Shown here: piece after piece, positions 10,941-14,554 of the stretch
Layout: each line of letters opens with the position of its first letter
Position numbering within the stretch: the stretch's first letter is position 1
Assembly: GCA_013811765.1 (NCBI GenBank)
Contig: JACCUO010000055.1
Span: 1-15,479 of the forward strand
Origin: Thermoleophilaceae bacterium
Lineage (GTDB): Bacteria; Actinomycetota; Thermoleophilia; Solirubrobacterales; Thermoleophilaceae
Direction of reading: 5' to 3'
Length of the DNA stretch: 15,479 bases
Notes under the pieces: model-generated
Databases searched by the model: none
What the model saw: only the letters and a program-made list of their open reading frames with translations
What the model was told of the DNA's origin: nothing
Made by a program: the position numbers and the translations under genes

Positions 10941-10949
10941 GGCGAAACG

Positions 10950-11579
10950 GTGGCGGCGATGGCCCAGGCGGTTTCCACAGCAGCCGAGGCTGGTGATTCA
11001 GACCCAGCCCATCTTCGCGCGCTACCGCCGTACGCCCCCCGGGGGGGCGCCCCGCCCGGCGGGCGTGGCACCACCTCGGGCCGGGTTCTCGTGCTCAACG
11101 CCTCCTACGAGCCGATCAACGTCTGCACCGTGCGTCGCGCGGCCGTGCTCGTGCTGAAGGATCGTGCGGAAATCCTCGAGCGCGGGGAGTGGGCACTGCA
11201 CGCGGAGACGATGACGCTCCCCCGCCCGGCGGTGATCCGGCTCAAAGCCTACGTCCGGGTGCCTCGTGACGCACACCGCCGCAAGATCACGCGCCGCGCC
11301 GTGTTCGCCCGCGATGCCTGGAAGTGCCAGTACTGTGGGCACGAGCGCGGCAATCTCACCGTCGACCACGTGATCCCGCGGTCAAAGGGCGGCGGGTCGG
11401 GATGGGACAACATCGTGACCTGCTGCGCCCCTTGCAACCGGCGCAAGGGCGACCGCCTGCCGCGCCAGGCGAACATGGTGCCCCGGCGCCCTCCCAGCGC
11501 ACCGAGCTCCACGATCTTCATCCATGTGGCCGCGCCCGTAATACCCCAGGCGTGGGAGCCGTACCTGGCCGCCGCATAG
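10950..11579 (+). CDS. HNH endonuclease-family protein
   Basis: A 209-residue protein of a conserved actinobacterial HNH family. After a low-complexity N-terminus (1-44), the conserved body begins VLVLNASYEPINV (46-58), continues with VIRLKAYVRVPRDAHRRKITRRAVFARD, then the zinc-finger HNH motif: Cys126-x2-Cys129, Asp139-His140, Asn154, Cys159-x2-Cys162 and NRRKGDR (163-169). The C-terminus is P-W-x-PYL. Family members are presumed metal-dependent nucleases; the substrate is not known, and this type is chromosomal rather than part of an obvious restriction or intron system. The start could be GTG 10950, ATG 10959 or GTG 11091; the first fits the -10 at 10935. The N-terminus contains a C6G7 run at 11035-11047 where slippage would change the frame. 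Confidence 0.85.
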   Translation: MAAMAQAVSTAAEAGDSDPAHLRALPPYAPRGGAPPGGRGTTSGRVLVLNASYEPINVCTVRRAAVLVLKDRAEILERGEWALHAETMTLPRPAVIRLKAYVRVPRDAHRRKITRRAVFARDAWKCQYCGHERGNLTVDHVIPRSKGGGSGWDNIVTCCAPCNRRKGDRLPRQANMVPRRPPSAPSSTIFIHVAAPVIPQAWEPYLAAA

Positions 11580-11639
11580 TCTGGGCCCAAGCGATCGGCT
11601 GCGCTCCTCCCCTTAGAGTCCGCGTGGGCCCTGAAAGCA

Positions 11640-11667
11640 CGAGGGGCGCCCGATCGGGCGCCCCTCG
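11640..11667. terminator. Perfect 28-base palindrome, likely transcription terminator
   Basis: A 12-bp GC-rich stem (CGAGGGGCGCCC on each side) with a GATC loop; the whole 28 bases are self-complementary. On the minus strand it is followed by TGCTTTC, a weak T-tract, so it fits best as the end of the small RNA. On the plus strand it lies 60 bases after the HNH stop but has no T-run. It may work in both directions between the convergent genes, as GC-rich actinobacteria often use hairpins without good T-tracts. Confidence 0.65.
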
Positions 11668-11850
11668 CTGGCTGCGTGTCTGGACCAATCGACGGCGGAC
11701 CTACCGGAGCTCGCGCTCCATGGCCGGAGGGACCATTCCCGGCCTCCGCATTGCCGACGGTGCCTCGGTTGGACTCCGCTTGACGGGGCCCAGCTTCGGT
11801 CTAGCGGCCGGACACCTCCAGGGTCCCGGCATGTCTGTCAATCAAAGTAC

Positions 11851-11865
11851 GGACCACCTCCTTTC
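11851..11865 (-). promoter_or_regulatory. Extended 16S rRNA-complementary (super Shine-Dalgarno) sequence
   Basis: Minus strand GAAAGGAGGTGGTCC. The usual bacterial 16S 3' end, GGAUCACCUCCUUUC, would pair with all 15 bases, with one G-U. Normal ribosome sites pair over 4-7 bases. No start codon with normal spacing opens a credible gene downstream: TTG after 11 bases and GTG overlapping the site give only 14 or 18 codons. Confidence 0.7.
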
Positions 11866-11877
11866 CCTGGTAGGCCC

Positions 11878-11883
11878 AATATA
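11878..11883 (-). promoter_or_regulatory. TATATT -10 element of the candidate small RNA
   Basis: TATATT on the minus strand matches five of six consensus bases, standing out as AT-rich in a very GC-rich region. It is 46 bases downstream of the gyrA stop. The sequence 16-19 bases upstream gives no convincing -35. The expected +1 is close to 11871. Confidence 0.5.
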
Positions 11884-11892
11884 AGCACATCG

Positions 11893-11928
11893 GGCCGTCG
11901 TCCTGACGAGGTTCACCTCGCGGCGGCC
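11893..11928. repeat. Nested inverted repeats just after the gyrA stop
   Basis: CGAGG and CCTCG (11907-11920) flank a TTCA loop, and GGCCG / CGGCC form a possible outer stem (about 11893-11928). It begins within two bases of the gyrA stop on the minus strand. It could stop or protect the gyrA transcript, but no T-tract follows, so a terminator call is not supported. Confidence 0.35.
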
Positions 11929-11929
11929 A

Positions 11930-14554
11930 TCACTCCGCTTCGGTGTCGGTGGTGGGGGCCTCGTCGTCCTCCTCGGGCCCCTCGGGCCCGGGGGCTTTCC
12001 CACCATCCTCCCCCTCACCGGTGGGCTCCAGGTCGGCGATCGGCTCGAGGGCTCCGAGCGTCTCCTCCTGGACCACCGCGGAGGTGTCCGCCTCGTTCTC
12101 CATCACCAGCGCGACCGCGCTCACGCGGTCGTCCTCGCGCAGGTTCATCACCCTCACCCCCTGTGCCGACCGGCCCTGCCGTGAAATCCCCCGGACGCCG
12201 GTGCGTTGCACCATTCCGTTCTGGGAGATGAAGACGAGGTCCTGGTGCTCGCGGACGATCAGCGCCCCGGCCACGCCACCCTTCCGCTCGGTCAGGTGGA
12301 TGGTCTTCACTCCCATCGCCCCGCGCCCCTTGACCGGGTACTCGGCGATCGCCGTTCGCTTGCCGTAGCCGTTCTCGGTCACCACGAGCAGCTCGGTCTC
12401 GTCGCGCGCGATGTCCATCGCCAGGACGCAGTTGTCCCCGCGTGACACGTTCATGCCGCGAACGCCGGCGGTGTCGCGGCCCATCGGACGGGCGTCCGCC
12501 TCGCTGAAGCGCGCGGCCTGTCCGGAGCGCGAGACCATGATGATGTCGTCCTCGCCGCTCGTGCGGCGCACCGCCACCAGCTCATCGTCCTCGCGGATGT
12601 TGATCGCGATGATCCCGTCGGCCTTGATCGGGGTGTTGTAGGCAAGGAACTCGGTTTTCTTGATCTGCCCCTTCTTGGTCGCGCACACCAGGTATCTGCC
12701 CTCGGTGAAGTCGCGGGTCGAGAGCACGGCGCGTACGAACTCTCCGTCGCGCAGCGGGAGCACGTTTACGAGCGCCCTGCCCTTGGCGGTGCGCGAGGCC
12801 TCCGGAAGCTCGTAGACCTTCTGCCGGTAAACCTTGCCGCGGTTGGTGAAGAAGAGGAGGTAGTCGTGGGTCGAGCAGACGAACAGGTGCTCGATGTAGT
12901 CCTCGTCCTTCGTGTCCATCCCCATCACCCCCACCCCTCCGCGCTTCTGGTTGCGGTAGGTGGAGAGCGGCAGCGACTTGATGTAGCCGGAGTTGGTGAT
13001 CGAGATGACCATCTGCTGGTCGGCGATCAGGTCCTCGATGTCGATGTCATCCTCGGAGTGGGTGATCTCCGTGCGGCGCTCGTCGCCGTAGGCGTGCCTT
13101 ATCTCGAGCAGCTCCTCCTTGATCAGGTCACGGACGCGCTGCTCGTCCCCGAGCAGCTCGCGCAGCCACTTGATCCGCTCGACGACCTCGGCGTGCTCCT
13201 GCTCGAGCTTGCCGGCCTCGAGCGCCGTTAGGCGCTGCAGCCGCAGGTCGAGAATCGCCTGGGCCTGGATGCGTGACAGCTCGAAGCTCTCCATCAGGCC
13301 GTCGCGAGCGGCGTCCGGGTCGCGGGAACTGCGGATCAGCGCGATCACAGCCTCGATGTCCCTGATCGCGATCAGCAGCCCCTCGAGAATGTGCAGCCGC
13401 GCCTCGCGCTGCCGGAGCTCGTGCTTGGTGCGCCGGACCACCACCTCGACCTGGTGCTGCACGTACTCCCGGATCAGCTCCCGCAGGGAGAGCGTGCGCG
13501 GCACCCCGTCGGCGAGAGCCACCATGTTCACGCCGAAGGTGCTCTGCAGCGGCGTGAACTTGAACAGGTTGTTGAGCACGACCTTCGGGATCGCGTCACG
13601 CTTGAGCTCGATGACCAGCCGGATGCCGTTCTTGTCCGACTCGTCGCGCAGGTCGGAGATCTGCGGGATCCTGCCGTTCTGGACGACCTCGGCGATCTTC
13701 TTGATCAGGCCCGACCCGTCGTTGCGGCCGTCTCCCTTGTAAACCTGGTAGGGCAGCTCGGTGACGATGATCGACTCCTTGCCCTGCCGCATCGGCTCGA
13801 TGTGCGCCCTGCCCTGGACCACCACCCTGCCGCGCCCGGTCTCGTAGGCGTCCTTGATCCCCTGCCAGCCCTTGATCACCCCGCCGGTCGGGAAGTCGGG
13901 CCCCTTGATGTGCTTCATCAGCCCGGCGACGTCGATGTCCGGGTTGTCGATGAACGCGACGGTCGCGTCGATCGCCTCGCCGAGGTTGTGCGGCGGGATG
14001 TTCGTGGCCATGCCGACGGCAATGCCCGATGAGCCGTTGACCAGCAGGTTCGGATAGCGCGACGGCAGGACCGTCGGCTCCTGGCGCGTCTCCTCGTAGT
14101 TGGGGACGAAGTCGACGGTGTCCGCGTCGATGTCGCGGAGCATCTCCGTCGAGAGCTTCGTCAGCCGAGCCTCGGTGTAGCGGTAGGCCGCGGCGGAGTC
14201 ATTGTCGATCGAGCCGAAGTTGCCCTGCCCGTCGATGAGCGGGTAGCGCATGGCGAAGTCCTGCGCCATGCGCACGAGCGTGTCGTAGATCGCCGAGTCG
14301 CCGTGCGGGTGGTAGTTGCCCATCACGGCGCCGACCACGGTGGCGCTCTTGCGGTAGCCCCTGTTCGGCTGAAGCCCTGACTCGTGCATCGAGTAGAGCA
14401 CCCGCCGGTGCACCGGCTTGAGGCCGTCGCGGGCGTCCGGCAGCGCGCGCCCGACAATCACGCTCATCGCATAGTCGAGGTAGGACGAGCGCATCTCCTC
14501 CTCGAGCCCACGCGGCTCGACATTGCCGCCGGAAAGCACCTCTATGCCCGCCAT
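11930..14554 (-). CDS. gyrA: DNA gyrase subunit A
   Basis: An 874-residue subunit that cuts and rejoins DNA in the A2B2 gyrase, introducing negative supercoils. The N-terminal breakage-reunion domain (about 15-510) has catalytic Tyr126 in [10 protein letters not shown] and the quinolone-determining region [13 protein letters not shown] (79-91), with Ser87 and Asp91, the residues usual in quinolone-sensitive enzymes. The C-terminal beta-pinwheel (about 512-820) carries the GyrA box as QKRGGVG (536-542), a variant of QRRGGKG, so it is gyrase rather than topoisomerase IV. The last 55 residues (820-874) are an acidic, low-complexity tail. Compared with E. coli there is a short extra segment, [11 protein letters not shown] (272-282), after ELPYQV. 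ATG 14554 is supported by GGAGGGG upstream, which overlaps the gyrB stop; the genes are 12 bases apart. Confidence 0.98.

Follow-up and report, generated by a model that had tools for sequence, protein, structure and literature searches.

What occupies the 350 bases between a gene for an HNH endonuclease and gyrA in the genome of a Thermoleophilaceae bacterium? The stretch of DNA analyzed here, 15,479 nucleotides in length and referred to as “the window,” carries the HNH gene on the plus strand (10950-11579) and gyrA, identified as DNA gyrase A by Pfam, on the minus strand (11930-14554), so that the gap runs from the end of the one at 11579 to the 3′ end of the other at 11930. A first-pass annotation had placed within it a minus-strand element with a promoter, a 16S rRNA complement, hairpins, and a palindrome, and every one of these named parts was found in the sequence. 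The features that bear on transcription are as follows.

11879..11887, minus strand: extended −10 box TG-C-TTATAT, with TG at 11887-11886 and the hexamer at 11884-11879; recognizable in relatives
11636..11871, minus strand: predicted transcript of ~235 nt, both ends being predictions
11641..11666, minus strand: 26-nt perfect palindrome, read from the sequence; probable terminator common to the element and the convergent HNH gene

The −10 box that the annotation had reported is therefore present, in extended form. The predicted start of transcription, base 11871 on the minus strand, coincides with position 1 of the Rfam family RF02471 and of our own covariance model, R1. Among the matches listed, three groups of loci (43, 45, and 77 sequences) are enriched in T at −12, A at −11, and T at −7, at constant spacing to the 5′ A, and a −35 box was seen in only one of these groups. 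The 3′ end of the transcript was set just past the palindrome (11666-11641), which is perfect over 26 nt and, much as annotated, has almost no T-tract behind it. A G+C-rich hairpin also comes next in relatives.

The HNH gene lies downstream of the element and is convergent with it. Among the matches listed, the first gene called downstream was on the opposite strand at 85 of 165 loci and on the same strand at 26, with none called at the other 54, as counted from a homology-based ORF call and no gene finder. The families of neighboring genes vary by lineage, with gyrA and HNH in the taxonomic order of the window and what we take to be Fur, YgfZ-like, and other genes in other lineages. Because the −10 box is at a fixed distance and the neighbors differ between lineages, the element appears to be a gene of its own. 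Pfam found no match in a 186-amino-acid plus-strand ORF that spans it (11324-11884), and ARAGORN found no tRNA and no tmRNA across the window (0 genes), a result that removes the tRNA-like domain on which a tmRNA assignment would depend. By eye, positions 10943 to 11030, from upstream of the plus-strand HNH ORF into its start, look vaguely tRNA-like; ARAGORN finds none there. Spread via mobile elements was also considered and dropped, as blastn of the element against 72,556 plasmid and 50,697 phage records, a search that detects similar DNA only, gave no match.

The element is conserved in relatives, a finding whose absence the annotation had named as a refutation: BLAST with positions 11625 to 11900 matched 46 of 60 related genomes (47 of 61 counting its own). 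The Rfam scan that it had proposed gave a divided answer, with no match anywhere in the window at the gathering cutoff and, at a low threshold, a match to RF02471 (Ms_IGR-5) at 17.0 bits (E 0.081), short of that family's curated cutoff of 45 bits. This alignment sets base 11871 against the first position of the model, and RF02471 is the only low-threshold match that spans the 5′ core; STnc320, microRNA families, and CC2171 were rejected, lying on the palindrome or far below cutoff. One genome in the 61 among relatives reaches the RF02471 cutoff, with a copy from the same order at 45.5 bits.

We built model R1 from 31 aligned homologues, all from outside the window's class: 8 from other classes of the same phylum, 22 from other actinobacterial genera, families, or orders, and one (L173) labeled Actinobacteria only. 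Its training set includes loci that score 81 to 176 bits with RF02471. This covariance search, which the annotation had recommended, finds the element at 50.7 bits (E 1.8e-13), its sole match in the window up to E 10. Because R1 detects the window at this E value and an orthologue from the same order lies above the cutoff, common descent with RF02471 members is indicated, and we take the window element to be a divergent homologue of Ms_IGR-5, a family reportedly first discovered in M. smegmatis. R1 also recovers 95 of 95 other sources, which are homologues previously found by BLAST, pattern, or Rfam, plus one extra noise match in L076.

In a sample of the phylum, R1 matched 138 of 396 genomes (111 of 300 among those ≥90% complete with ≤5% contamination); six of the 138 matches score below 25 bits and may be chance, and nine, including these six, are known from the score table alone. 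RF02471 was found in 67 of 296 genomes at E 0.01, the limit also applied to R1, and in 25 of 296 above cutoff, the samples of 296 and 396 being overlapping rather than identical. There is one R1 match per genome in 137 of the 138; G386 has two, on separate contigs (L282 and L310). Three copies (L091, L111, and L187) are on contigs titled Acidobacteria or Acidobacteriota, which may be misnamed or misbinned actinobacterial MAGs.

Near its 5′ end, the predicted transcript carries two features of translation.

11851..11866, minus strand: 16-nt complement of the 16S rRNA 3′ end, an extended Shine-Dalgarno (SD) sequence, GGAAAGGAGGUGGUCC, identified by duplex energy
11801..11845, minus strand: short ORF of 14 codons plus stop, with a TTG start at 11845 and TAG at 11803-11801, identified by homologue frame counts

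The 16S-complementary 5′ end noticed in the annotation holds up well. GGAAAGGAGGUGGUCC and the 16S tail GGAUCACCUCCUUUCU form 16 gap-free pairs, of which two are G-U, and at −29.9 kcal/mol the duplex is the best of 7,728 sampled 24-nt stretches from both strands of the window; the best stretch outside the element reaches −21.3 kcal/mol. A search of 41 genomes turned up the 16S tail GGCTGGATCACCTCCTTTCT in 13, one of them of the same genus; in the element's own genome, which is incomplete, it was not found. Predicted engagement of the element by ribosomes is well supported.

In the window, the TTG start of the ORF sits 11 nt past GGAGG. Among the matches listed, the stop is at a fixed place in 165 of 165 loci (TAG in 131, TGA in 26, and TAA in 8), the loci having come from BLAST, Rfam, and patterns, with at least 105 from a pattern that required GGAC, GAGGTG, and the first stop base and 8 from another that fixed TAG. 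In the same loci, again among the matches listed, ATG, GTG, TTG, or CTG lies in frame 5 to 15 nt past GGAGG in 152, the remaining 13 each begin with ATC, ATT, or ACG at a distance of 8 nt, and the other two frames are open in 43 and 0.

A set of 196 distinct homologues (207 aligned rows, 197 of them distinct over the first 75 bases, minus the noise row L076:229-300 at E 0.11) permits comparison with a null. The ORF is open in all 196, with a start 7 to 13 nt past GGAGG that is canonical (ATG, GTG, TTG, or CTG) in 173, and its length is 12 to 15 codons in 187. Starts are TTG (86), ATG (40), CTG (30), GTG (17), ATC (11), ATT (7), ATA (3), and ACG (2), and stops are TAG (151), TGA (39), and TAA (6). 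Shuffling of the linker left canonical starts in a mean of 22.9 of 196 and at most 36 (500 rounds), or a mean of 41.6 and at most 60 with near-cognate starts included; the near-cognate starts and the 7- to 13-nt range were picked after viewing the data, and the shuffles obey the same rule. In the other two frames a canonical start fits 0 and 5 of 196. The same ORF picture is given by 70 distinct sequences found by model only, in which no base was fixed by a pattern (stops TAG 52, TGA 16, and TAA 2). For L266 the scripted stop was wrong, being too near, and the frame read by eye is TTG plus 10 codons. With SD, start, open frame, and stop all kept against the null, the short ORF has the marks of one that is translated.

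Start codons differ in position. Weak starts sit close to GGAGG (52 of 53 CTG, AUN, and ACG starts at ≤9 nt) and ATG starts sit far from it (40 of 40 at 10 to 13 nt). TTG and GTG are mostly at 10 to 12 nt, and CTG, AUC, AUU, AUA, and ACG are at 7 to 9 nt.

The same bases take part in a predicted fold, whose components are listed below.

11867..11870, minus strand: P0 5′ strand, CCAG; highest covarying pairs, pair counts
11818..11821, minus strand: P0 3′ strand, CUGG; covariation, pair counts
11808..11816, minus strand: P1 5′ strand, GGUGUCCGG, within the ORF; covariation, pair counts, RNAalifold
11759..11768, minus strand: P1 3′ strand, CCGAGGCACC, with one bulged A; pair counts, window fold, RNAalifold
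11801..11807, minus strand: P2 5′ strand, CCGCUAG, containing the stop codon; pair counts, RNAalifold
11776..11782, minus strand: P2 3′ strand; pair counts, RNAalifold
11769..11775, minus strand: junction AGUCCAA, unpaired and partly conserved; MAFFT alignment A1
11722..11744, minus strand: P4 hairpin, with a variable stem and a conserved loop; pair counts
11822..11827, minus strand: pseudoknot arm GGGACC, within the ORF; covariation, pair counts
11729..11734, minus strand: pseudoknot arm GGUCCC, in the P4 loop; covariation, pair counts

Mutual information calculated with no structure assumed, from 165 loci among the matches listed, gave its highest rank to a pair that joins the 5′ end to the bases just preceding GAGGUG. 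Further top ranks, among the same matches, went to more P0 pairs and to GGUGnCnGn with the downstream CACC region (P1), and the next to the stem of P4 and to bases on either side of GGAC and GUCC. When P0, P1, P2, P4, and the pseudoknot were scored on the 31 R1 sequences, 85.2% of cells paired, with 81 double-change cells versus 34.4 in shuffled data; P4 pairs in 67.7% only, and the outer pseudoknot pair is unpaired in 22 of 31. For the 95 loci outside R1, 93.7% of cells pair versus 81.4% when shuffled, and 312 double-change cells compare with 85.7 (0 of 500 shuffles as high), in an alignment of 96 rows, one of them noise, that was fitted to P0, P1, P2, and P4 and not to the pseudoknot, and whose sequences had already helped in recognizing P0 and the pseudoknot. 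Versions of the structure slid along these loci pair in 30 to 45%.

The pseudoknot arms change together across genomes. In another 80 sequences, obtained with R1 alone, in which the arms were chosen as the best complement, they read GUGACC/GGUCAC, GCGACC/GGUCG, GAGACC/GGUCU, UGGACC/GGUCCA, and GGGACC/GGUCCC, and one position shows all four Watson-Crick pairs. Under a blind choice of hairpin, GTC lay in the best loop of 128 of 184 sequences (56 being without GTC, and 12 sequences lost), and 123 of these 128 pair at the pseudoknot, against a mean of 107.6 and a maximum of 114 in 2,000 shuffles. RNAalifold on MAFFT alignment A1 predicted P1 and P2, not P0 or P4, and paired the GGAC arm with GUCC of the SD, in pairs that hardly vary. 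The GGAC arm (11827-11822) can thus pair either with the SD GUCC (11854-11851) or with the P4 loop. Overall, the predicted fold of four helices (P0, P1, P2, and P4) and a pseudoknot is well supported.

The apical loop of P2 is a site of insertion: L027 has ~100 nt extra there relative to the otherwise near-identical L008, and in L025 the loop holds a stretch with repeated GTTGTCCCGCCGAGCACCGACCC-like units.

Not every argument of the first-pass annotation survives. An unconstrained fold of the window alone includes P0 and P1, but folding energy does not single out the minus strand, which has a z of −1.50 (15 of 200 shuffles fold equally well) and is bettered by the plus strand at −2.70; we would rest the case for the element on conservation and covariation, not on folding energy. 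A GCGA loop at about 11720-11707, taken as a GNRA tetraloop and as evidence of strand, is GAGG in L003 from the same genus, and the hairpin is not evident by eye in other rows; because it is not conserved, the loop says nothing on strand. Promoter, 16S complement, ORF, and covariation all indicate the minus strand. Compensatory changes support structure and ORF together, rather than a coding frame in place of structure, the outcome that the annotation had thought would count against an RNA. Comparison of homologues shows SD, ORF, and fold sharing the same bases.

RF02471 and the window have in common the 5′ end, an SD-like segment, GGAC, GAGGUG, and the stop region, together with P2, P4, and an outer helix. 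They differ in the structure line of Rfam, where GgCugC is the partner of the SD region and P0, P1, and the pseudoknot are absent. In the Rfam consensus structure P2 and P4 agree with ours, and covariation backs P0 and P1, not Rfam's SD helix. P0, P1, and the pseudoknot are new relative to the Rfam model, which also lacks the ORF and is filed as an sRNA. In an open-access collection that does not include the founding paper (PMC3527728), our search met no description of Ms_IGR-5 as having an ORF, a pseudoknot, or a function, and a text search of PMC5521070 and PMC9569102 found no mention of IGR-5.

If the ORF is translated, is it the peptide that matters or the act of translation? The 185 unshifted frames read ...T-x-E-V-x-x-x-stop, with E-V at the fifth and fourth positions from the end in 185 of 185 and T in 171 of 185. 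The residue before E is of nine kinds and the residue after V of twelve, as P0 and P1 change. In 10 of the 196 homologues (11 with L266) the stop is one base nearer GGUG and the start has moved along, giving unrelated, GGGSS-like peptides on the same RNA motif. This shifted-frame group is small, several of its members come from one family in the window's own class, and the pseudoknot was sought in it and not found, so it is structurally deviant too. Because the frame shifts against the RNA in this group yet stays open, what is conserved is the open frame and not the peptide sequence.

With somewhat more belief than doubt, we favor an autonomous small regulatory RNA whose fold ribosomes open by translating a sacrificial ORF. 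The SD would recruit the 30S subunit very firmly, and start codons, being often weak (UUG, CUG, AUC, and AUU), may tie initiation to the condition of its machinery; the start codon would set the sensitivity. A ribosome is of such a size that, on the short ORF, it must melt P0, P1, P2, and the pseudoknot. In reading the 14 codons it would open all of these, and at the stop codon it would occupy P1 and P2. Because the reading ribosome must open the pseudoknot and the three helices, the RNA would have two shapes, and translated and untranslated RNA would differ in shape and possibly in effect. One shape, by way of an exposed strand, altered stability, or a held 30S subunit, would be the signal to a target, with output in trans and the peptide as a by-product. 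GGAC, paired with the SD GUCC or with the P4 loop, could form a second switch arm. The annotation had offered a ribosome-binding regulatory RNA: covarying helices, a pseudoknot, and an extreme SD bear out the structured, ribosome-binding part, and the regulatory output is what we infer.

Leader-peptide attenuators and dual-function sRNAs (e.g., VcdRP) are the nearest known kinds. As in these, a ribosome on the short ORF would alter RNA structure, and both ORF and structure are on one small RNA; unlike these, the element has no downstream gene in cis, and its ORF and structure occupy the very same bases rather than adjoining stretches. In Staphylococcus aureus, extended SD sequences with noncanonical starts are described for infC (AUA), cvfC1 (AUU), and ccpN (AUA) in PMC13009471. 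These share with the element a very long SD pairing with AUU/AUA-type starts and differ in that their ORFs encode proteins, whereas here a 14-codon ORF lies in a covarying fold. Other studies bear on expression: in M. abscessus and M. smegmatis, ribosome footprints are described on the MS_IGR-5 homologues, with the authors' caution that footprints likewise occur on most non-coding RNAs of E. coli (PMC4974804), and a copy was detected by RNA-seq in S. lividans (PMC8079986), as its own transcription unit in S. avermitilis (PMC8780764), and as a transcript in M. smegmatis (PMC10454040).

Other readings share part of this evidence. One, which we regard as unlikely, makes the 16-bp pairing with 16S rRNA the function itself, so that the RNA parks or titrates small subunits in slow growth and the ORF and pseudoknot restrict how far the ribosome can travel. 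It draws on the −29.9-kcal/mol duplex, on an SD segment that is invariant apart from changes that are mostly G-U compatible, and on the structured block right behind the start codon, but a pure decoy could do without both an open frame and a stop codon, and, barring very high expression, a single copy (137 of 138 genomes) is more what one expects of a regulator than of a titrant. Rather unlikely, too, is an mRNA for a regulatory micropeptide, in which the product that works in trans would be the peptide of 14 residues and the folds would do no more than adjust how much of it is made. The ORF kept in 196 of 196, E-V in 185 of 185 and T in 171 of 185 unshifted frames, the strong SD, and the footprints on homologues in PMC4974804 would all suit it; yet the bases that encode E-V and T, GAGGTG and GGAC, are structural as well and were partly imposed by the search anchors, and codons in P0 and P1 vary freely with the pairing partner (nine and twelve residues). 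The micropeptide is disfavored because of the shifted frames, in which the same RNA yields unrelated peptides.

An ordinary non-coding sRNA acting in trans, its ORF incidental, would agree with the Rfam class and with a standalone unit that has its own promoter and terminator. It is strongly disfavored, and we think it quite improbable: canonical in-frame starts number 173 of 196 versus at most 36 with shuffled linkers, the other two frames give 0 and 5, and three kinds of stop occur at one place. To a cis-acting leader or attenuator of a neighboring gene we give less credence still. The logic of a leader ORF is there, and among the matches listed the first downstream gene is codirectional at 26 of 165 loci, but a leader lies upstream of the gene that it controls and reads into it, and here the HNH gene is convergent, with mixed neighbors elsewhere; 85 of the 165 loci listed have an opposite gene and 54 none called, and neighboring families differ between lineages. 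The annotation's second suggestion, a leader mRNA for a tiny peptide, is accordingly upheld in its short ORF and unlikely as to “leader,” because the downstream gene is convergent. Taken as a whole, its interpretation was essentially right.

Filed as sRNA, the family appears to undergo translation in addition to folding, the two constraints falling on one set of bases, and it extends well past the genomes that Rfam's model detects. Its parts (an ultra-strong SD, often weak starts, a sacrificial ORF of 10 to 19 codons, and a pseudoknot over the ORF) could make up an RNA switch, widespread in actinobacteria, that has the translating ribosome as its ligand; the switch would report how readily ribosomes initiate and, in trans, influence growth or the supply of ribosomes, a broader proposal that we advance tentatively and ourselves doubt more than we believe. 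Should the ribosome-gated reading be right, the actinobacteria, among which are the chief producers of antibiotics, would possess a general RNA monitor of translation initiation.
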